Of a DNA stretch of 64,000 nucleotides, positions 3,380-36,374 are shown piece by piece; the first letter of the stretch is position 1, and each line of letters starts with the position of its first letter. The DNA lies in contig NZ_KV700386.1 in the NCBI RefSeq assembly GCF_001687305.1, positions 248,001 to 312,000 on the forward strand. The letters run 5' to 3'. Under the pieces are notes generated by a model. That model was given only the letters and a program-made list of their open reading frames with translations, ran no database searches and was not told the DNA's origin. A program made the position numbers and the translations under genes. The DNA is from Actinomyces vulturis. GTDB lineage: Bacteria > Actinomycetota > Actinomycetes > Actinomycetales > Actinomycetaceae.

Positions 3380-4276
3380 ATGGATATTCGCCTCCCGGAC
3401 TTTTCCCATCTTGATTTGTCAGTTCTTCGTCCCGGTATTGCTTTGCCGAAAACAGCAGTGCTGAGTCCCGGGTGTGGTGGGCAGATGCGTGTGTTGATCG
3501 ATGCGCCCGCTGCGAGCGGTGAAATTTATTTATTTGGTGCCACGGTGACAAGTTGGCGCCCTCAAGGTGGTAAGGAAGTGATCTTCACGTCTCGACAAGC
3601 TGTGTTTAATGGTCACACGCCGATTCGTGGTGGTATTCCGCTTTGTTTGCCTTGGTTTGGTCGTGGAGTAGACGGCGAGCACGCTCCGTCTCATGGGTGG
3701 GCACGTTCGCAGATGTGGACTTTGCGGAGCGTTAGTGCCACCTCTGAAGGCGGTGTACGCGTTGTTCTCGAACTGGAGCATGACAGCCTTGTTGTGCTTT
3801 ATGAGGCAGACTTTGGTAGCAAACTGACGACGTCGTTAAGCATTCGTAACACTGCGGGTGAAACTGTTTTGTGTGAAGCGGCGATGCACACCTATCTTCG
3901 CGTTCATGACATCACTGCGGTGGAGATTTCCGGTATTGGCAATGCGCCGTATATCGATGGTCCTACGGGGGATCGGGGGACTTTAGGGCCTTTGCCTCTA
4001 CGTTTTACCGGTAGTTATGACCGCATTATTGATACTGATGGCCCTATTGAAGTAAGCGATCCCGGCTTTGAGCGAACTATTGTGGTTAGTAAGTGTCAAG
4101 CACCTCAAAGCATTATTTGGAATCCTTGGAGCACTCTTGCTCAGGGATTAGCCGATATGGCTGACGACGAATTTGCTTCCATGGTGTGTGTCGAAAGTGC
4201 TCGCGTTCGTCATGATGCTGTGAAGTTGGCGCAGGGTGAGTCGATGTCATTGAGTCAAACACTAAGCATTCGCTGA
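3380..4276 (+). CDS. D-hexose-6-phosphate mutarotase (aldose-1-epimerase family)
   Basis: The 298-residue product matches the YeaD/YMR099c type of the galactose mutarotase superfamily. It has GATVTSWRP near the N-terminus, PIRGGIPLCLPWFG, the basic HGWARSQMW segment containing the catalytic histidine, EAAMHTYLRVHD, and WNPW near the end. Known members interconvert the alpha and beta anomers of glucose-6-phosphate and related sugar phosphates. This fits a genome region with zwf, pgl and gnd a few kilobases away, but they are not in one operon. The start ATG lies 59 bp from the divergent HAD start. Confidence 0.88.
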   Translation: MDIRLPDFSHLDLSVLRPGIALPKTAVLSPGCGGQMRVLIDAPAASGEIYLFGATVTSWRPQGGKEVIFTSRQAVFNGHTPIRGGIPLCLPWFGRGVDGEHAPSHGWARSQMWTLRSVSATSEGGVRVVLELEHDSLVVLYEADFGSKLTTSLSIRNTAGETVLCEAAMHTYLRVHDITAVEISGIGNAPYIDGPTGDRGTLGPLPLRFTGSYDRIIDTDGPIEVSDPGFERTIVVSKCQAPQSIIWNPWSTLAQGLADMADDEFASMVCVESARVRHDAVKLAQGESMSLSQTLSIR

Positions 4277-4379
4277 TGTGAGGTGATGCACAGTGGATTG
4301 AGTTGGTGTTTGATGCTCCTCTCGTGCTAAGTTTCTCTGCGTCGCCAATGTGAGAGCGTTGGAGCAACAACTCAATAAA

Positions 4380-4467
4380 GTCCGAGTGGCGGAATAGGTA
4401 GACGCGCTAGCTTGAGGTGCTAGTGCCTAATTAAACGGGCGTGGGGGTTCAAGTCCCCCCTCGGACA
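4380..4467 (+). tRNA. tRNA-Leu (anticodon GAG)
   Basis: An 88-nt class II tRNA cloverleaf. The acceptor stem GTCCGAG (4380-4386) pairs with CTCGGAC (4460-4466), with discriminator A at 4467. The anticodon stem GCTAGC/GCTAGT encloses TTGAGGT, with anticodon GAG at 4414-4416. A long variable arm follows, then a T arm GGGGG-TTCAAGT-CCCCC. It should decode CUC/CUU leucine codons. The 3' CCA is not encoded. Confidence 0.97.
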
Positions 4468-4475
4468 CTTCTAAG

Positions 4476-4511
4476 AAATCGAGATGAGCAATATGCTCAC
4501 CTCGATTTTTT
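4476..4511 (+). terminator. Rho-independent terminator after tRNA-Leu
   Basis: The inverted repeat AAATCGAG-A-TGAGCA / TGCTCA-C-CTCGATTT closes on a three-base loop and ends in a run of six T, nine bases after the tRNA discriminator. Confidence 0.9.
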
Positions 4512-4676
4512 ATTGTGTGAGTGGTACGTGACTCTTACGAGAACCGCTTTAAGATTTTCCCAAAATGGGGAATTATCGTCGTAGAAACGGAAATGATGAC
4601 GAGTCGGTTTCGGTGCCTGCTCGATTTGGTGTTTTAGGTAGTGAACTGGGTTATTCTTGTCATTTTGCTCCGTATG

Positions 4677-5081
4677 TTAATCCGTGCGCTGGCGATCAAT
4701 TGAACTGAAGCCACGCAAACGGTCGAGTTCACGACGTTCCTTTTTGGTGGGGCGCCCGGCACCACGAGGGCGAATAATCGCGGCGGGTGCTTCTAAAGGT
4801 GACGGCTTAGGTGCACTTCGATCGATATAACATTCCTGAGCGCGGGGAGCACTGACACGCTTAGCCAGGAGCCCAGTCACTTCAAGAATTCGATCGAAGC
4901 CGTCAACACGGTAACGCACGGTGTCCCCGATGCTGACCGGTGAGGCAGGTTTGACTGGTTCGCCGTTAATACGGACATGTCCGGCTTTGCAGGCAGCCGT
5001 AGCTAAGGAGCGCGACTTCACTTGGCGAACACTCCACAACCACACATCGATACGTACTTTATTTTGGGTGTGATTAGTCAT
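4677..5081 (-). CDS. S4-domain RNA-binding protein, Hsp15/RqcP-like
   Basis: This is a 134-residue protein. Residues 8-70 form an S4 RNA-binding domain (VRIDVWLWSVRQVKSRSLA, then GHVRINGEPVKPASPVSIGDTV). A basic C-terminal tail (RPRGAGRPTKKERRELDRLRGF) matches the Hsp15 (HslR) pattern. Family members bind 50S-peptidyl-tRNA complexes from stalled ribosomes. The start ATG overlaps the 3' end of the HNH nuclease gene by eight bases, so translation is probably coupled even though the functions look unrelated. Confidence 0.85.
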   Translation of the reverse strand: MTNHTQNKVRIDVWLWSVRQVKSRSLATAACKAGHVRINGEPVKPASPVSIGDTVRYRVDGFDRILEVTGLLAKRVSAPRAQECYIDRSAPKPSPLEAPAAIIRPRGAGRPTKKERRELDRLRGFSSIDRQRTD

Positions 5082-6192
5082 CTTTTCTCCAATGCTTCAT
5101 GTGGCGTGGTGTAGTGCGTGATGATGCTGGGGTAGGCATGGGAGGGGTGAACTGGGCGTATGGGGCGCGACGTACATGTTCTCTTTTATGTTTTTTCTTC
5201 TTTGCTCGTCCGTGATGAAGAATCCATACCCCTACCGCAACAAGTAGAACGAGCCAGGGGAAACGGAAAACAAATCGGATGATGACGTAGAGAACTCTGC
5301 CGATAATACGTAGCGCGCCCCACGCTGCTTGCCCTGAGCTGGCCACGCCGTTTCCCCCTGAAGAACAGTCCCTCAAGGTGGATTTCAGTGCAGCGCGATC
5401 AGCATCGGGCAAACCTAGGTCATAGGCATGAACCACAGAGACGAAACGTAGGGCATAGTCGCACCGGTATTCATCATGCGGAGGCCACCACCCTGGCCCT
5501 CCTTGGGGATCCCAGGTGCCGGTGGGAGTGGAGCCAATAGGGCCTGTGGCAGGCCCACTAGCACCCTTGTCCTGGTTCGCTTGGCCCTTAACCGCTAATA
5601 GGTTGAGTGGGTCGTTGGCGATCTCGAGACGAGTCTGTGCATCCCACTGCCAACCGCCATGTGCCCAGACGTAGTTCAGTGGAACAACATGGTCAATCTG
5701 GACAGCGTCGGAGGAGTCTTTCCCCTTAGTGAACTCCACAACCTCCCCCGTATACGGGTCGATTAGGGTGCCGCCCCAGACAGTAGCCATAGGGCAACGG
5801 CGGGTAGAGCCTCGTGGCGATTGTCCTTGTGCTTGAATACCAGGATCGGGGGAGTAATCCAGATCGATAAGATCACGCGCCAGAATGTCATCGCGAGTGT
5901 CACATCCGTTGTGATCAACATCTTCCCAGGATGGGCCAAACCAACCTTCACGACCACCTGGATGCCATGAGGTAGGTGCAGGGGAATCCGGTGGCAGAGA
6001 ATCAAGAGCGGACAAGGCATCGTCGATACTTAATATCCCGTCATCAGGATTGTGAATATCGGCAATATGAAGATGGGTAGCCTGCGGAGAGGTGGCAGAA
6101 AAAGCTAGTGCAGGGCTCAGAACAACACTAGCCAAACTAAGAATCATGGCTACCACACCAAGGGCGGGACGCATCGGGCGCAGTATGGTCAT
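5074..6192 (-). CDS. Membrane-anchored extracellular HNH (GmrSD/DUF1524-type) nuclease
   Basis: I place the start at 6192 because AAAGGA lies six bases before that ATG. This gives 372 residues. A signal peptide (GVVAMILSLASVVLSPALAFSA) is followed by a secreted domain with DHVVPLNYVWAHGG, NDPLNLLAVKGQANQDKG and a final CDYALRFVSVV helix. That order is typical of the DUF1524/GmrSD-C HNH nuclease of actinobacterial secreted proteins. Unusually, residues around 305-330 form a second hydrophobic helix (IIRFVFRFPWLVLLVAVGVWIL). A lysine-rich cytosolic tail (KKKKHKREH) follows, so the nuclease should sit on the outer face of the membrane. Host for DNA uptake, nutrient scavenging or defence is unknown. 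Confidence 0.82.
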   Translation of the reverse strand: MTILRPMRPALGVVAMILSLASVVLSPALAFSATSPQATHLHIADIHNPDDGILSIDDALSALDSLPPDSPAPTSWHPGGREGWFGPSWEDVDHNGCDTRDDILARDLIDLDYSPDPGIQAQGQSPRGSTRRCPMATVWGGTLIDPYTGEVVEFTKGKDSSDAVQIDHVVPLNYVWAHGGWQWDAQTRLEIANDPLNLLAVKGQANQDKGASGPATGPIGSTPTGTWDPQGGPGWWPPHDEYRCDYALRFVSVVHAYDLGLPDADRAALKSTLRDCSSGGNGVASSGQAAWGALRIIGRVLYVIIRFVFRFPWLVLLVAVGVWILHHGRAKKKKHKREHVRRAPYAQFTPPMPTPASSRTTPRHMKHWRKDD

Positions 6193-6395
6193 TACGCGTC
6201 CTTTCATGAGTTCATGTGATACGTCGTAACTTCGCTGACATATTGTTGCGGTCACGACGCCGTCCGGTTACCTGGTCTTATATGCCTCACCTATTTTGTG
6301 ACTAGGGAAACGAAGCAGGTAGTCGTGACCAGAGTGGCACGGGATGTGACGAAGGAGCAAACGAGAATCCACAAGAAATATGGGACTATAAACCT

Positions 6396-6980
6396 ATGAC
6401 AGATACGGCCCTACATACGACCCTAGACGTCTCTGCCCATCAGCCTGATGAGGTTTACCGCATTCTTATGAGCATTATCGTCCCACGCCCGGTGGCCTGG
6501 GTCTCAACTTGCTCTGCTGATGGCGTTAATAATCTCGCACCCTATGGATGGTTCGGTGCTGTCTCCGGTCAACCGCCGATTGTTCACTTCACCTCACGTG
6601 CTCCCAAAGACTCATGGCGTAATGCCAATGAAACGGGGAGTTTTGTTATCAATATTGCTGACGCTCCGCTGCGCCAGGCATTGATGGTCACCAGCCAAGA
6701 CGTGCCGGCGCAAGTCGATGAAAGTGAACTGGCAGGAGTTACCTTGATTCAGAGTGATGAAGTCAGCGCTCCTCGTGTTCAGGAAGCCCCTATTAGTCTT
6801 GAATGCGTCACCCACTCGACTCACCCTATTGGTGAATCCATTATGACGTTCGGAACCGTGGTACGCATGCATATTCGTCCTGACATTCTCGGTGCAGATG
6901 GCCTTGTCGATGCTGAAGCTCTTAACCCGTTAGCCAAACTTGGTGGAACTGGCTGGAGCAGTGTGGCCCCGCTGCAGTAA
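6396..6980 (+). CDS. Flavin reductase-like domain protein (FMN-binding split barrel)
   Basis: The 194-residue product matches the flavin reductase-like family (PF01613, DIM6/NTAB group). It begins with the conserved YRILMSIIVPRPVAWVST, then NNLAPYGWFGAVSGQPPIVHFTS and KDSWRNANETGSFVIN. Those loops bind FMN in the split barrel. Members either reduce flavin for a partner monooxygenase or act on unknown substrates. No partner monooxygenase is next to it. It is monocistronic and ends at a strong bidirectional hairpin shared with pgl. Confidence 0.85.
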   Translation: MTDTALHTTLDVSAHQPDEVYRILMSIIVPRPVAWVSTCSADGVNNLAPYGWFGAVSGQPPIVHFTSRAPKDSWRNANETGSFVINIADAPLRQALMVTSQDVPAQVDESELAGVTLIQSDEVSAPRVQEAPISLECVTHSTHPIGESIMTFGTVVRMHIRPDILGADGLVDAEALNPLAKLGGTGWSSVAPLQ

Positions 6981-7000
6981 GAAGTATGCACTTTCTCATT

Positions 7001-7039
7001 ACAAACCGCCCCGAGCGATAGGCGCTCGGGGCGGTTTGT
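7001..7039. terminator. Bidirectional hairpin terminator between flavin reductase and pgl
   Basis: A perfect 17-bp inverted repeat (ACAAACCGCCCCGAGCG and its complement) with a five-base loop lies between two convergent genes. It has short T/A ends on each side, as expected for a terminator used from both directions. Confidence 0.85.
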
Positions 7040-7061
7040 GTGATGGGCTGATGTCAGTAAA

Positions 7062-7901
7062 TTAAGCCCAACGGTGAGAAGACACAGAAGTTGAGCGAAT
7101 GGCATGAGGAATCTCGATGCTGGCAGTTTCGTCAACATACCAACTTGTGGAACGCAGACCACGAGCACAGGAACCAGGCCAGGTTGCAGGATCTACATGA
7201 GTTAGGCATTGGCCTACGGCATACGCCTTATCGTGGCCGCCAGCCAGCACCATGACGTGGCGGGCTGACTGAATGACAGGGAAGGTCAATGACACGCGTT
7301 CAGCTGGAGGCTTGGGCGAATGGTGAACTGGAATAACCGAGCCTTGAATGACGCATGCGTCGGGATGTGAGGGGAAGAGGCTGGCAATATGCCCATCAGG
7401 CCCCAGACCCACATGGAGTACATCGCATAGTCCATCACGCGGACCAGAGGTTGCGAACTCCTCATCGTAACGTGAGGCTGCTTCTTCAACCGTAGACACA
7501 CTGTCCGGACCTAATACGCGGTGGCAGTTCGCCTCCGGAACACCTGAGCGCAGCAATGCATCAGCCAGATTATCATTGCGATCCTTATGGCCAGCAGGAA
7601 CAAAGCGCTCGTCACCGAACCACAGATGAATACGAGCAAAATCTTTAATCCGAACTCCAGCAACCTCTAATGATGCTGGGAGCACACTGCATACGGCTGC
7701 TCCGCCGCGTCCACCGGTAAGAACCAGGTGAACTTCGTCGCGACGTGTTAGGTAATCAGCCAGCAATGTCGCTGTATCGGAGGCGGCAGAGCGAGCAGCA
7801 GCGTTTAAATCCTCACGAACAACCACGCGAGGCATCGGGCGTGCCTCAACATTTGAAATGACGGCCGTAGTCCACAGGGCTGATTCATTCCAGGCTGGCA
7901 T
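7062..7901 (-). CDS. pgl: 6-phosphogluconolactonase
   Basis: This 279-residue DevB/SOL-type lactonase hydrolyses 6-phosphogluconolactone to 6-phosphogluconate in the oxidative pentose phosphate pathway. Visible motifs are VHLVLTGGRGG (phosphate loop, about residue 60), RIHLWFGDERFVP, HVGLGPDGHIASLFPSHP and VSLTFPVIQSARHVMVLAGG. The start two bases after the opcA stop is the longest. A shorter start at MPRVVVREDL (residue 23) would also give a complete domain. It is the last gene of the leftward zwf-opcA-pgl operon. Confidence 0.93.
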   Translation of the reverse strand: MPAWNESALWTTAVISNVEARPMPRVVVREDLNAAARSAASDTATLLADYLTRRDEVHLVLTGGRGGAAVCSVLPASLEVAGVRIKDFARIHLWFGDERFVPAGHKDRNDNLADALLRSGVPEANCHRVLGPDSVSTVEEAASRYDEEFATSGPRDGLCDVLHVGLGPDGHIASLFPSHPDACVIQGSVIPVHHSPKPPAERVSLTFPVIQSARHVMVLAGGHDKAYAVGQCLTHVDPATWPGSCARGLRSTSWYVDETASIEIPHAIRSTSVSSHRWA

Positions 7902-31079: not shown

Positions 31080-32084
31080 ATGGTTTTGCACTGTGGAGTG
31101 ATGGGATATCCCGTCGCCCATTCCCTATCTCCTATTCTTCACCAAGCCGCCTACCACGAATTGGGGTTGGACAATGTGGTGGCCTACGACCGCGTCGAAG
31201 TCACCCCGCAGGAAGGTCCTGAGTTCATTAAAAAGTGCGCTCAACCGCACTCTTCGTGGTCAGGTCTTTCCGTCACCATGCCTCATAAGCAAACATTGAT
31301 GGAACGGATGGATGTACTCGACCCGTTAGCGAAGGTGGTAGGCGCGCTCAACACCATCGTCTTTTCCCATTCCGCGCCGGACGATGAGGCACTCACTTCA
31401 GGCTTTAACACTGACGTGGAAGGCATCGTCGAAGCCGTCCGTGACGTGATGAATGCTGAACAGATTGCCGACATTGCATCTGATAGCACAGGAGATAGTG
31501 GACGTGCTCTCATTCTCGGAAGTGGCGCGACTGCATGTTCATCATTGGCAGCACTGACTCAACTGGGCTACTCAGAAATATCGGTGGCTGCTCGGCGTCA
31601 TTATGGGGAGCAGAGAACTTCTGCAGCAGCCCAGCGTATGGGCCTGACCATTGAGACCCACTCGTTGACCCATGAGTCAGATGATAATTCCGAATTGATT
31701 GGCTGCCCAGAACCCACCTCAGCAGAGTTGGTCCCCGCTCTGAGGGAACACATCACAAGTCTTTGCTCGTCCCACAGCCTGATGATCTCCACCCTCCCCA
31801 AAGGTGTCGCTGACACATGGGCAAGGTATCTTCACGACGCCGCAATAGCAGGACACATCGACCTTACCGGCCACTATCTCCTTGACGTTATCTACGATCC
31901 CTGGCCCTCACCGCTGTCTGATGCATGGCGACGAGCAGGAGGAAGTCTTATTCCTGGATACCTCATGCTTCTGTTCCAGGCAGTACCCCAAGTGATGCTC
32001 ATGACAGGACAACGCCCAAGTGTCCAACCCATGCGTCAAGCGCTCTATCAGGCACTTGAAGAACGTGGACTTGAAATCCTCTAA
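31080..32084 (+). CDS. aroE: Shikimate dehydrogenase
   Basis: The 334-residue enzyme reduces 3-dehydroshikimate to shikimate with NADPH. The substrate site includes HSLSPILHQ (Ser15, Ser17) and the catalytic Lys70 in VTMPHK. GFNTDVEG binds shikimate, LILGSGATACSSL is the nucleotide loop and YDPWPSPLSDAWRRAG lies near the C-terminus. It is longer than usual (about 275) because of an insertion after the Rossmann loop (around residues 190-225). It stands at the head of an aro run with aroC and aroKB. Confidence 0.92.
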   Translation: MVLHCGVMGYPVAHSLSPILHQAAYHELGLDNVVAYDRVEVTPQEGPEFIKKCAQPHSSWSGLSVTMPHKQTLMERMDVLDPLAKVVGALNTIVFSHSAPDDEALTSGFNTDVEGIVEAVRDVMNAEQIADIASDSTGDSGRALILGSGATACSSLAALTQLGYSEISVAARRHYGEQRTSAAAQRMGLTIETHSLTHESDDNSELIGCPEPTSAELVPALREHITSLCSSHSLMISTLPKGVADTWARYLHDAAIAGHIDLTGHYLLDVIYDPWPSPLSDAWRRAGGSLIPGYLMLLFQAVPQVMLMTGQRPSVQPMRQALYQALEERGLEIL

Positions 32085-32132
32085 TATGCGGTGCGGTTTT
32101 TTCACATGGCGCTCATGTGCAAAGATCTTCCC

Positions 32133-33353
32133 ATGCTTCGATGGATGACTGCCGGTGAGTCACACGGCCCTGCCTTGACCGCAATGATCGATGGACTGCC
32201 TGCAGGCCTCGAACTGACTAGCGAGCGTATTGAGCGTGATCTCGCTCAGCGCCGTCAAGGCTACGGGCGGGGGGCCCGTCAGGCATTTGAACGCGACGTT
32301 CTTACCATCACCGGCGGATTGCGCCACGGTAAAACTCTTGGCAGCCCCCTCAGTTTCCACATCGCTAATTCTGAATGGCCCAAGTGGACTGCTGTGATGA
32401 GTCCTGATCCGGTTGATCCTGCTTTGCTTCGTAAAGACGCAGGAACAGGTGATGAACGAGAAATCGCACGCAATAAGAAACTCACACGTCCCCGGCCCGG
32501 ACATGCTGACTTGGCTGGAATGATGAAATACGACGTCGATGATGCGCGCAACATCCTCGAACGTGCCAGTGCTCGCGAAACCGCCTCCCGTGTAGTGGTG
32601 GGTACCGTAGCCAGCGAGATTCTTCGCCAAGTGGCCGGAATTGAACTGGTCAGTCATGTCGTCTCCATCGGAGATGTGGAATTACCAGTAGATACTCCAT
32701 TGCCTAGTGCCGACATGAACGAAGCGCTCAATGCTCATCCCGTGCGCTGCTGCGATGAGGTTACTGGTCAGGCCATGATGGATTTGATTGACCGTACCAA
32801 GCAAGAAGGCAACACCTTAGGTGGAGTTGTTGAAGTTATCGCATACAACGTTCCAGTTGGTTTGGGCAGCCACACTCAATGGGATCGGCGACTCGACTCG
32901 CAACTTGCTGCAGCGGTGATGAGTATTCAGTCGGTCAAGGGTGTAGAAATCGGCGATGCCTGGCGCCAGGCACACGTTCCTGGCACCCAAGCTCACGATC
33001 CGATCACTTCCATTTACTCTGGCACTATCGAACGTTCATCGAACTACGCTGGGGGAGTAGAAGGTGGGATGAGCAACGGTGCGCCCCTGCGTGTTCGCGC
33101 AGCACTTAAACCCATTTCTACTGTTCCTCGTGCATTGGAAAGCGTAGATCTTGATACTGGGCAATCGACCGTAGGCTTGCACCAGCGCTCCGACGTGTGT
33201 GCGGTGGTTCCTGCAGCATTTATTGCTCAATCTATGGTCGCGTTGACACTTGCTCAGGCATTATTGGAAAAGACTGGAGGCGACTCGATCGTCGAATGTC
33301 GGCGCAACCTCGAAGCTTACCTTGAGCATGTGGACGAAAGGACAACCTGGTGA
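32133..33353 (+). CDS. aroC: Chorismate synthase
   Basis: The 406-residue FMN-dependent enzyme converts 5-enolpyruvylshikimate-3-phosphate to chorismate. It starts MLRWMTAGESHGPAL, with the catalytic His of the first signature. RRQGYGRGARQ, RPGHADLAGMMKY, RASARETASRVVVG and GGVEGGMSNGAPLRVRAALKPIST follow. I chose the ATG at 32133 because the family always begins here. The frame is open 14 codons further upstream. Its stop overlaps the GTG of aroKB (GTGA). Confidence 0.96.
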   Translation: MLRWMTAGESHGPALTAMIDGLPAGLELTSERIERDLAQRRQGYGRGARQAFERDVLTITGGLRHGKTLGSPLSFHIANSEWPKWTAVMSPDPVDPALLRKDAGTGDEREIARNKKLTRPRPGHADLAGMMKYDVDDARNILERASARETASRVVVGTVASEILRQVAGIELVSHVVSIGDVELPVDTPLPSADMNEALNAHPVRCCDEVTGQAMMDLIDRTKQEGNTLGGVVEVIAYNVPVGLGSHTQWDRRLDSQLAAAVMSIQSVKGVEIGDAWRQAHVPGTQAHDPITSIYSGTIERSSNYAGGVEGGMSNGAPLRVRAALKPISTVPRALESVDLDTGQSTVGLHQRSDVCAVVPAAFIAQSMVALTLAQALLEKTGGDSIVECRRNLEAYLEHVDERTTW

Positions 33354-35047
33354 AACACTCATTCGCGCAGCCCGCACCTGTTGATGTCCCCATCGTTCTT
33401 ATTGGTCTGCCCGGTGCAGGTAAGACTACTGTCGCTCGCTTGGTTGCTGAGGAACTCGGCCTTCAAGTAACTGATCTCGATGCTGAGATTCGCCGCCGTG
33501 CACGGATGAGCATTCCCGAAATCTTCGCTACTGAAGGTCATGATGCGTTTCGTCGCCGTGAGCACCAGGCTTTGACGGCCATTTTGACCGGTCCAGCGCG
33601 TGCGCTGGGGGTGATTGCTCTTGGCGGAGGTGCTGTAGTCACTGCGGCAAATCGTGAACTGCTTAAGGGCCATACTGTGGTCTATCTCCACACCTCTCCT
33701 GAGGTGGCAGCAGAGCGCGTGGGCTCAGGAACTGGACGGCCCTTAATGGAAAACACTGACGTTGAAGCACGGATGGCGACTTTGTTTAGTGAACGTTCGG
33801 AGTACTACGACGAAGTTGCTACCCTGACCGTCACTACCGATGGACTAAGCGCCCAGAAAGTTGCTGCTCAGATCCTCAAAGTACTCGGCGTGAATGACGA
33901 TTCCACTACCCTGCCTGTTCACGATCCTGAGCGAACAGACGTGGTACCCGTTCGCACTACCCCTGCTTACGACGTCGTTATTGGGGACCACCTCGAACGA
34001 GACATTGTTGCGACTGTCCGTGAGGCAACCCATCAAGGACAAGGCATTGCTGCCATTATTAGCCCTCCTGAAGTGGGTGCATATACTCAGCGACTTGCTC
34101 ACGCCCTGGGAAACGCAGGTATTACTGTAGCCACTATTTCCGTGCCCTCTGGAGAAGAACAAAAAACCTCTAAGGTTCTTTCCCGTTGCTGGGACGAACT
34201 AGGTATTGCTCGCGTCGGACGCGATGGTGCAGTAATCGGACTTGGGGGAGGAGCCACTACAGACCTCGCAGGATTTGTCGCTGCCACATGGTTGCGCGGC
34301 GTCCCTGTTATTCAAGTTCCTACGACCGTCCTTGGCATGGTGGACGCAGCAGTAGGTGGTAAGACCGGCATTAATACTGCTGCCGGAAAAAACCTTGTAG
34401 GAGCTTTCTACTCCCCATCCGCAGTATTCGCCGACTGCAAGACCCTGGCTAGCCTCAATGATGTTGAGGTTCGTACAGGCTTAGGCGAAGTCATAAAATG
34501 CGGATTCATTGCTGACCCCATAATCCTTGACATTATTGCCGCTGACCCACAGCGTGCTACCGATGTGACTACAAAGGAAATGAAGGAACTCATTTCACGC
34601 TCAGTGCGCGTGAAAGCCGATGTGGTCAGCGAAGATCTCACCGAGCAAGGACGTCGTGAAATCCTTAATTATGGACACACCTACGCTCACGCGATTGAAA
34701 CGCTTTCTGGATACACCTGGCACCACGGTCACGCTGTGGCCGTAGGGTGTATGTTCGCTGCACATGTTGCCCACGCACTGGGAATGATTGATGACGCCTT
34801 GGTTGAACGGCATCGTCAGGCACTGGCCAGTGTTGGACTACCAGTCAGCCTCTCAGTGAACGAGTGGGAGGGCAATATCCCCTCTTTTGAGGACATGATG
34901 GCCGTGATGCTTTCCGATAAGAAGGTTCGCGGCGGAGAAATCCGTATGGTTCTTCTAGAAGGAATTGCCCAGCCCGTACGCACTGTCATCACGGATCATC
35001 GCATTCTTGAGCAAGCACACGATCAGATTTGGGGCCGTGTCCTGTGA
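33350..35047 (+). CDS. aroKB: Bifunctional shikimate kinase / 3-dehydroquinate synthase (AroK-AroB fusion)
   Basis: The 565-residue protein joins two shikimate pathway enzymes. Residues 14-180 are shikimate kinase: P-loop GLPGAGKTT at 19-27, DLD at 42-44, FRRRE at 67-71, GGG at 92-94 and lid Arg130 in GTGRP. After a linker, residues about 200-565 are 3-dehydroquinate synthase with VPSGEEQKT, GLGGGATTDLAGFVAATWLRG, KTGINTAAGKNLVG and the zinc-binding histidines in NYGHTYAHAIE and HGHAVAVG. The fusion is intact. The gene starts with GTG inside the aroC stop and ends inside the start of the next gene, a tight translational chain. Confidence 0.95.
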   Translation: MKHSFAQPAPVDVPIVLIGLPGAGKTTVARLVAEELGLQVTDLDAEIRRRARMSIPEIFATEGHDAFRRREHQALTAILTGPARALGVIALGGGAVVTAANRELLKGHTVVYLHTSPEVAAERVGSGTGRPLMENTDVEARMATLFSERSEYYDEVATLTVTTDGLSAQKVAAQILKVLGVNDDSTTLPVHDPERTDVVPVRTTPAYDVVIGDHLERDIVATVREATHQGQGIAAIISPPEVGAYTQRLAHALGNAGITVATISVPSGEEQKTSKVLSRCWDELGIARVGRDGAVIGLGGGATTDLAGFVAATWLRGVPVIQVPTTVLGMVDAAVGGKTGINTAAGKNLVGAFYSPSAVFADCKTLASLNDVEVRTGLGEVIKCGFIADPIILDIIAADPQRATDVTTKEMKELISRSVRVKADVVSEDLTEQGRREILNYGHTYAHAIETLSGYTWHHGHAVAVGCMFAAHVAHALGMIDDALVERHRQALASVGLPVSLSVNEWEGNIPSFEDMMAVMLSDKKVRGGEIRMVLLEGIAQPVRTVITDHRILEQAHDQIWGRVL

Positions 35048-35637
35048 CTCGTGCAGCCTTGCTCATTGCTCTTCCTGGCGCTCTGCCGTCGTCCTTAGCG
35101 GAGGTCGTGGCGGAGCGTGGGGGAGTAGTCTTCGATGTGGAATCTCATGCTGCTCGTGCTCTGGGGGTTCCTGCTGAACTTGCCGTGGCTTATGTTGGTC
35201 AAGAGCGCTGGATTGATGCTCATCGTCAGGTTTTAACTGATACGTTGCAGAACGTGCAGTCGGTAGCCGTCCACAGAGAAAACGCCACCGCATTGACGCG
35301 CAGTGATGATGCCCAAAGGATGAGCCCTCGCTCCCTTGAATGTCTGGTTGTTGTACCGTCATTGGTCGTCGAGGATGAGGAATGTTGTGAACTCATCCGT
35401 TCGGTAGATCTGCCAATTGTCGGCTTGACAGGAACACCACGAAAACTTGCCCATGCCATTGGCCTGAGCGCTCCCCGCTCGATTGCCTTGGGACCCGTTT
35501 TCTCAACCTTTGCCACGATGTGCGAACGCCGTGAAACTGCCCTTCGCGACATTTGTCATGAGGTATTAGTAATCGATGAAGCAAGCGACGATTCTGCTGC
35601 GTGGCTGATCGATGTACTCGTCTCTGTTGTGTTTTAA
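35044..35637 (+). CDS. Shikimate-kinase-like pseudoenzyme (catalytic motifs lost)
   Basis: No functional family is obvious, but the 197-residue product aligns along its length with the kinase half of the preceding AroKB. LLIALPGALPSS (6-17) matches the P-loop strand, but the Lys is Pro15. FDVES (30-34) replaces TDLDA. GQERWIDAHRQVL (52-64) sits where FRRRE should be. LVVVPSLVV (101-109) replaces the GGG strand. LPIVGLTGTP (123-132) matches the strand before the lid. FSTFATMCERRETALRDI (153-170) matches the last helices. The GTG start overlaps the aroKB stop. It stands where aroQ is found in related gene orders. A regulatory or scaffolding role is inference. Confidence 0.75.
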   Translation: MTRAALLIALPGALPSSLAEVVAERGGVVFDVESHAARALGVPAELAVAYVGQERWIDAHRQVLTDTLQNVQSVAVHRENATALTRSDDAQRMSPRSLECLVVVPSLVVEDEECCELIRSVDLPIVGLTGTPRKLAHAIGLSAPRSIALGPVFSTFATMCERRETALRDICHEVLVIDEASDDSAAWLIDVLVSVVF

Positions 35638-35813: not shown

Positions 35814-36374
35814 GTGGCAACGACGAACGACCTGAAGAACGGCTTGGTACTCAACCTGGAGGGTCAGCTGTGGCAGGTAGTGGAATTCCAGCACGTCAAG
35901 CCGGGTAAGGGCCCCGCTTTCGTGCGCACCAAGCTCAAGAACGTTCTTTCCGGTAAAACCGTCGACAAGACCTTCAACGCAGGCATCAAGGTAGAGACCG
36001 CCACCGTTGATCGCCGCGATATGCAGTACCTGTACAAGGATGGATCCGACTACGTCTTTATGGATGTCAAGACCTACGATCAGGTCTACGTCTCTGATGA
36101 GACTGTCGGTGAGGCATCCCGCTTTATGCTCGAAAACCAGGAAGTTATCGTAGCCTTCCACGAAGACGCAGCACTTTTCGTCGAACTGCCCGCAGCAGTT
36201 GTTCTTGCTGTATCCCACACCGAGCCCGGTTTGCAGGGAGACCGTTCTAACGCTGGTACCAAGCCCGCCACCCTTGAGACCGGCACTGAAATCCAGGTTC
36301 CTCTTTTCATCAACGTGGATGACAAACTTAAGGTCGATACCCGCACTGGCAGCTACATCTCTCGCGTGAACTGA
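35814..36374 (+). CDS. efp: Elongation factor P
   Basis: The 186-residue three-domain translation factor relieves ribosome stalling at proline stretches. Domain I carries the loop [10 protein letters not shown] with the lysine at its tip (about residue 32). [32 protein letters not shown] and the C-terminal [26 protein letters not shown] signature are all present. The start is a GTG preceded by GAAGGA. No lysine-modifying genes are visible in the window. It overlaps nusB by one base and probably has its own promoter in the 176 bp upstream. Confidence 0.96.

Follow-up and report, generated by a model that had tools for sequence, protein, structure and literature searches.

Directly behind the fused aroKB gene of an Actinomyces genome lies a gene, here termed X, whose product is a diverged paralogue of shikimate kinase that appears to have lost catalysis, has been inherited mostly vertically across one actinomycete family, as shown by trees and synteny, and is kept by purifying selection in relatives of the copy described here. 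Shikimate kinase (AroK) is under study as a target for inhibitors and generally counts as a housekeeping enzyme of bacteria. To our knowledge, relatives that lack shikimate kinase activity occur only in plants and, built into regulators, in fungi and in the benzoate regulators. The descent of X from shikimate kinase and the catalytic loss predicted from its residues are both well supported; a maintained non-catalytic role is likewise well supported for the genus, and for the species studied here it is probable.

In the window, i.e., the whole 64,000-nucleotide stretch of DNA analyzed, the gene order is aroE, aroC, aroKB, X, efp, nusB (Table 1), where we take the names aroC, efp and nusB from the look of the sequences and not from a family search. 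A GTG/TGA overlap of X with aroKB, described in the original prediction, is borne out by a GTGA whose 4 nt the two genes share. X and aroKB have identical GC contents at the three codon positions (0.68/0.46/0.48). Within its own genome the sequence of X matches only itself, and at E ≤ 0.001 the Pfam model SKI (PF01202) matches nothing there but the kinase half of AroKB. A scan for promoters and terminators gave no signal above that of shuffled sequences. As a side observation, AroE (334 aa, window positions 31080-32084) matches Pfam just in its N-terminal domain and a short C-terminal piece, with an unusual middle part.

Table 1. Features at the X locus, with positions counted from the first letter of the window.
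Feature	Position	Strand	Details
aroC, chorismate synthase, upstream of aroKB	32091..33353	+	tblastn to relatives; presumed name
aroKB, fused shikimate kinase and 3-dehydroquinate synthase	33350..35047	+	kinase active site intact
X, degenerate shikimate-kinase paralogue	35044..35637	+	197 aa, GTG start, TAA stop
GTGA, start of X over stop of aroKB	35044..35047	+	4-nt overlap; putative coupling
Former P-loop, residues 9-19 (ALPGALPSSLA)	35068..35100	+	Pro at the Lys15 column
Conserved lid segment, residues 140-152 (GLSAPRSIALGPV)	35461..35499	+	invariant alignment columns; Arg117 column kept
efp, elongation factor P	35814..36374	+	176 nt downstream of X; presumed name

Taken by itself, the window copy of X is close to noise. 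BLASTP against AroKB aligned a single stretch of 34 residues (41% identity, E 0.007), with no reliable match outside it, and such a pairwise comparison alone is too weak to decide homology. Window X gave no SKI match in hmmscan, and nothing above cut-off in scans of Pfam, NCBIfam and PHROGs; its best hmmscan match, TetR_C_14, was dropped because it lies below cut-off and occurs in just one of 38 aligned family members, and Obc1_cap and DUF3322, both also below cut-off, were rejected as well. Homology is instead settled by the agreement between syntenic orthologues and fold. SKI is matched by 37 of the 38 aligned members at E ≤ 0.01 (best 1.8e-28), the window copy being the miss. The AroK kinase sequence matches the X stretch at E 8e-4 in its own locus and at E 9e-7 to 2e-14 in 22 of the 29 other loci of the genus, with no match at E ≤ 0.01 in the remaining seven. 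A profile built from 28 genus copies finds the shikimate kinase of M. tuberculosis (1l4u) at E 9.9e-15. On the same 28-copy alignment, AlphaFold2 yielded a model of window X with a pLDDT of 81.4 and a pTM of 0.72. In the PDB, the 17 best Foldseek hits of this model are without exception shikimate kinases (E 2.6e-5 to 4e-4), at moderate TM-scores of 0.49-0.56 by query and 0.56-0.65 by target and rmsd values of 4.8-8.6; further ranks hold more shikimate kinases, adenylate kinases and, lower down, type II dehydroquinases. The duplicated kinase that had been proposed on the basis of the window alone is thus upheld by orthologues, profile and fold, and neither a different fold nor a clear match to another enzyme family emerged. 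The accompanying claim that X aligns with the kinase half of AroKB almost without gaps holds as to homology but not as to a gapless full-length alignment, given the single short BLASTP stretch.

We compared the active sites using what we take to be the residue numbering of M. tuberculosis shikimate kinase. All 64 AroK proteins compared keep Lys15, Ser/Thr16, Asp34, Arg58, the GGG loop, Arg117 and Arg136. The GGG loop is present in none of 62 X proteins, which shows that the active site changed early. Window X, the most degenerate among 28 genus copies compared, reads Pro in place of Lys15, Glu in place of Asp34, Ile in place of Arg58 and Pro-Ser-Leu in place of GGG, and keeps the columns of Arg117 (in the lid, APRS) and Arg136 (ERRE). 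The statement that every catalytic residue is gone therefore applies to the first four and not to the two arginines, and GGG, said to be replaced by VPS, is indeed lost with Pro-Ser-Leu at its columns. In the 27 other genus copies, the Lys15 column is Cys in 26 and Ser in one, Asp34 is absent throughout, GGG reads GSG in 27/27, and Arg58, Arg117 and Arg136 are each kept in all 27. Since the ATP-binding Lys15 and the catalytic Asp34 are lost in the genus, its X proteins should not phosphorylate shikimate. Among X proteins of other genera (n=34), Lys15 occurs in 22, Arg58 in 20 and GGG in none; six of them (L061, L064, L065, L073, L074, L130) hold the full set except GGG, i.e., Lys15, Asp34 and all three arginines, and by these residues could be active kinases. 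Column assignment in the most diverged rows of the comparison is alignment-dependent. The residue counts omit three partial X genes (L116, L117, L139), one with a frame broken near its start (L005), one at a contig end (L014), one from another family (L135) and, for L069, all but the first of its three identical copies. With its sequence GL(N/D)APRSVALG, the X lid is similar to the longer AroK lid found in other families of the order (e.g., GLNASRPLLVGNPR), except that the proline and the leucines are changed.

Cysteines mark the genus copies in a second way. Among the 27 genus copies other than window X, Cys predominates in exactly three columns (26, 25 and 27 of 27), which together hold 78 of the 104 cysteines of these proteins. 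They correspond to Lys15, to the residue that follows GGG (Ala82) and to Tyr140, a turn beyond Arg136, each of them in or beside the active site, and by analogy to the enzyme the three would lie close in space. Two genus copies lack the second cysteine and keep the third, and the three are thus not strictly tied to one another; window X has none of them.

The genus is Actinomyces according to named records, among them A. oris, A. naeslundii, A. israelii and A. bovis; the named-record set comprises 31 loci and includes Gleimia, Winkia and unplaced Actinomycetaceae. A single-sequence search of 59 genomes matched 36, namely its own and 35 of the 36 others of the same genus, and none of 22 from other families. 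With the X profile, 49 of 49 genus genomes (its own and 48 others, among the matches listed) matched, all at E ≤ 1.7e-39, with the least significant match in a gene truncated by a contig end; 30 of the 49 were read for position. Re-checking an in-frame TGA in G015 and G036 revealed no stop inside the aligned X. Across the 36 genera of the family, for 34 of which (its own, 16 and 17 others) aro or efp loci were read, X is clear in 27. In g29 it is weak and partial (L116, L117) and counted as doubtful. Also doubtful is a 163-codon frame between aroB and efp in g43 (L127, 4889-5377, +), which looks X-like by eye and is unmatched by the profile. X was not found in the aro or efp loci read from g22, g23, g35, g46 and g49, nor in g45, represented by an unrelated kinase locus alone, and g56, which lies outside the loci read. 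An order-wide search with a broad profile matched 396 of 396 genomes because this profile also recognizes ordinary AroK. In 22 of the best other-family loci listed (families f8 and f9), each match is an AroK beside aroB, preceded by aroC in 18; an X-like lid is seen in one (L087). For L135, which is this gene again, and L136 (G407, from another family of the order), the aroK between aroC and aroB carries the lid NQPRSMALG and has an otherwise intact active site, and there is a further aroK, unlinked, whose lid reads RPLL; this may be an early step, taken in parallel, towards the fate of X. Separately, L069 (G178:C1:829000-840000) carries three tandem X genes at 3884-7118, identical in the matched sequence and with partial aroB copies between them, as a result of either tandem amplification or an assembly artefact.

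The operon context of X is tight in Actinomyces and looser elsewhere. In 30 genus loci, own included, aroB precedes X in 29, one contig ending early, and efp follows in 26. The start of X overlaps the stop of aroKB as NTGA in 25 of these 30 loci (12 GTGA, 8 ATGA and 5 TTGA, with one locus lacking aroB). X is present in 20 of 20 loci read in 16 other genera, after aroK and aroB in 17; efp lies at most about two and a half kilobases downstream in 19 of them, L071 being the one where it was not seen, and is the most constant neighbor of X. Among the loci read, aroB was not found in the aro operon of L070, L071, L080, L111, L112 and L141. In g30, g37, g42 and g53 (L118, L140, L134, L125, L131), X directly follows aroC in a locus without aroK or aroB, and in g38 (L121) it adjoins efp with aroC, aroK and aroB all missing from the locus. 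One genome each of g30, g42 and g53 carries an aroK and aroB pair on a separate contig (L119, L126, L132), in the case of g30 within a stretch that also encodes a type II dehydroquinase (G106:C4). The unlinked AroK proteins of g30, g38, g42 and g53 (L119, L122, L126, L132) form one tree group (support 97), which together with the neighboring type II dehydroquinase suggests replacement by an acquired aro cluster. X is thus coupled to aroKB in Actinomyces and outlives the departure of these genes elsewhere, so that its description as locked to aroKB goes too far in view of g30, g37, g38, g42 and g53.

In phylogenies, X forms one group apart from functional AroK. A quick tree of 93 rows places 43 X sequences on one side of a branch (support 98), as does a more careful tree of 62 rows for 34 X sequences (99/98), which omits nine X rows with long branches, window X included, and roughly half the AroK rows from the family. 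A single clade of X and family AroK was not rejected on the careful tree (p-AU 0.415), and the duplication may have taken place within the family or have preceded it. In the quick tree, window X, at the end of a very long branch (2.64), falls outside the genus group and next to it, together with two other long or distant rows (L123, L063), a placement for which the program warns of long branches meeting. Distances between X proteins correlate with those between the linked AroK proteins over 28 loci (r 0.50; none of 2000 permutations as high).

Over seven disjoint close pairs of named records, dN/dS (Nei-Gojobori) of X is 0.37, three to four times that of AroK (0.104, six pairs) in the pooled pairs, with 0.162 for AroB and 0.046 for EFP (six pairs). 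Amino-acid changes in X are far under the neutral expectation (p 3e-26, genus pairs). The eight closest pairs, among the pairs listed, range from 0.05 to 0.60, and median dN/dS for pairs with an AroB dS < 1.2 is 0.53 for X (262 pairs), 0.24 for AroK (240), 0.32 for AroB (263) and 0.17 for EFP (219). Within X, dN/dS is 0.055 over the 20 lid codons, 0.085 over the nine P-loop codons and 0.41 in the stretches that flank the lid, which indicates that selection constrains the lid and the Lys-less P-loop and acts loosely on the rest. Purifying selection and not decay, the outcome on which the earlier proposal depended, is therefore shown for relatives within the genus, from which these values come; the window copy stands apart.

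X can be compared with several known systems. With AroK and the kinase half of AroKB it has in common fold, length, descent, operon and the Arg117 and Arg136 columns; it differs in that genus X proteins lack Lys15, Asp34 and GGG, window X also lacks Arg58, and the lid is NAPRSVALG-like where that of AroK is RPLL. The NCBIfam model NF006015, which we take to be an anaerobic benzoate regulator (presumably BoxR) with a shikimate-kinase-like part, is matched by 30 of 38 X members at E ≤ 0.01. These regulators resemble X in the shikimate-kinase fold, which there forms part of a larger regulator, whereas X, with 197 aa and a predicted fold filled by the kinase-like domain, should have no room for a DNA-binding domain. 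Plant SKL1 and SKL2 are, according to the portion of the source considered, likewise old and long-retained shikimate kinase duplicates, and the Arabidopsis proteins showed no shikimate kinase activity when assayed (PMC2593004), a property that for Actinomyces X is predicted from residues. The same portion describes SKL1 as mostly keeping the ATP site and losing a shikimate-site and a lid arginine, roughly the reverse of Actinomyces X, and gives an SKL1 motif, LALLRHG[I/V]S, that is absent from window X by reading of its translation (PMC2593004). Fungal QutR-type repressors, derived from AROM, exemplify a shikimate-pathway enzyme fold turned regulator; as far as the part of the source considered goes, they comprise three enzyme-like domains and act with a zinc-cluster activator partner, whereas X is a single domain (PMC10512348). 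Window X is one 197-aa frame with no Pfam match to dehydroquinase or shikimate dehydrogenase, unlike the QutR-type make-up. Among literature titles and abstract openings, with most subscription journals outside the scope, we found no bacterial inactive shikimate kinase paralogue.

Retention under selection in the relatives suggests that X now does something other than catalysis. The account we prefer is a non-catalytic ligand-binding or regulatory twin of AroK, and we give ligand sensing as its mechanism about an even chance. A shikimate kinase was duplicated and one duplicate became X; its active site was altered early, with the loss of GGG, and in Actinomyces Lys15 and Asp34 are lost as well. 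Because the other genus copies keep Arg58 and Arg136, which contact the shikimate carboxylate, and the lid Arg117, the lid probably closes on shikimate, shikimate-3-phosphate or a similar acid, and X would then tune aromatic synthesis via a partner. AroKB, AroE or AroC as the partner that X might regulate or scaffold, as put forward originally, is a hypothesis at this stage. Window X, without Arg58, may function mainly by protein contacts or may be weakening: the loss of Arg58, of the three cysteines and of recognizability by SKI, together with the long branch, may mean that its own function is relaxed. A distinctly unlikely variant for Actinomyces, suggested by the three cysteine columns beside the kept arginines, is a thiol- or metal-based sensor made from a dead kinase; it would link an acid of the aromatic pathway to the redox or metal state and adjust the supply of chorismate. 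Window X lacks all three cysteines, and its species would have lost the switch.

The other explanations we weighed are not mutually exclusive. X may be an active kinase with changed specificity in part of the family, the Actinomyces form being a secondary loss. The occurrence of Lys15 in 22 and of the whole set in 6 of the 34 other-genus copies is consistent with this, as are matches of 37 of 38 members to a shikimate-kinase-related homoserine kinase model (best 3.8e-22), roughly equal to those to AroK models; we nevertheless consider it unlikely, if a serious candidate, as GGG is lost in 34/34 and Arg58 in 14/34 of those copies, no common alternative site is seen, and the retention of 28 genus copies without Lys15 is left unexplained. 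Rather more doubtful is a scaffold or stabilizing partner specific to native AroKB and matched to its level by translational coupling, a role that the 25 NTGA overlaps and the sister relationship of X to the fold of its would-be partner favor. It speaks against an obligate scaffold that g30, g37, g42 and g53 keep X behind aroC after aroK and aroB have left the locus, and that in L070, L071 and L080 no aroB was found next to X. Fast evolution, long branches, the extreme divergence of the window copy and the failure to find or clearly recognize X in 9 of 36 genera are what one would expect of a decaying duplicate carried along by the operon. This reading is disfavored for the genus and overall very improbable, given the profile match in all 49 genus genomes (among the matches listed), dN/dS of 0.37 (p 3e-26) with 0.055 in the lid, the single tree group and the vertical signal. 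We give practically no credence to a takeover of another pathway step such as that of dehydroquinase, whose gene aroQ, according to the original prediction, lies at this position in other bacteria. The type II dehydroquinase model (DHquinase_II) finds nothing in the window genome, nor in 21 of the 22 genomes examined for it, and enzymes of this type do turn up far down among the Foldseek hits (from rank 31, E 0.005), but X itself has no Pfam match to this family and is of shikimate-kinase descent. Moreover, a type I dehydroquinase is encoded elsewhere in the window genome (2.2e-42) and in 21 of the 22 tested, so that X fills no gap at that step; replacement of AroQ was rejected on these grounds, and the aroQ position of X tells nothing about its function. 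The window genome also holds two genes of the EPSP-synthase family.

As a non-catalytic twin of AroK, X would represent a family-wide selected companion within the aro operon, with living genera whose X active sites run from nearly complete to entirely lost. X proteins thereby offer a natural series for the path from enzyme to binding protein, and they point to a possible unrecognized layer of control in the aromatic synthesis of human-associated actinomycetes.
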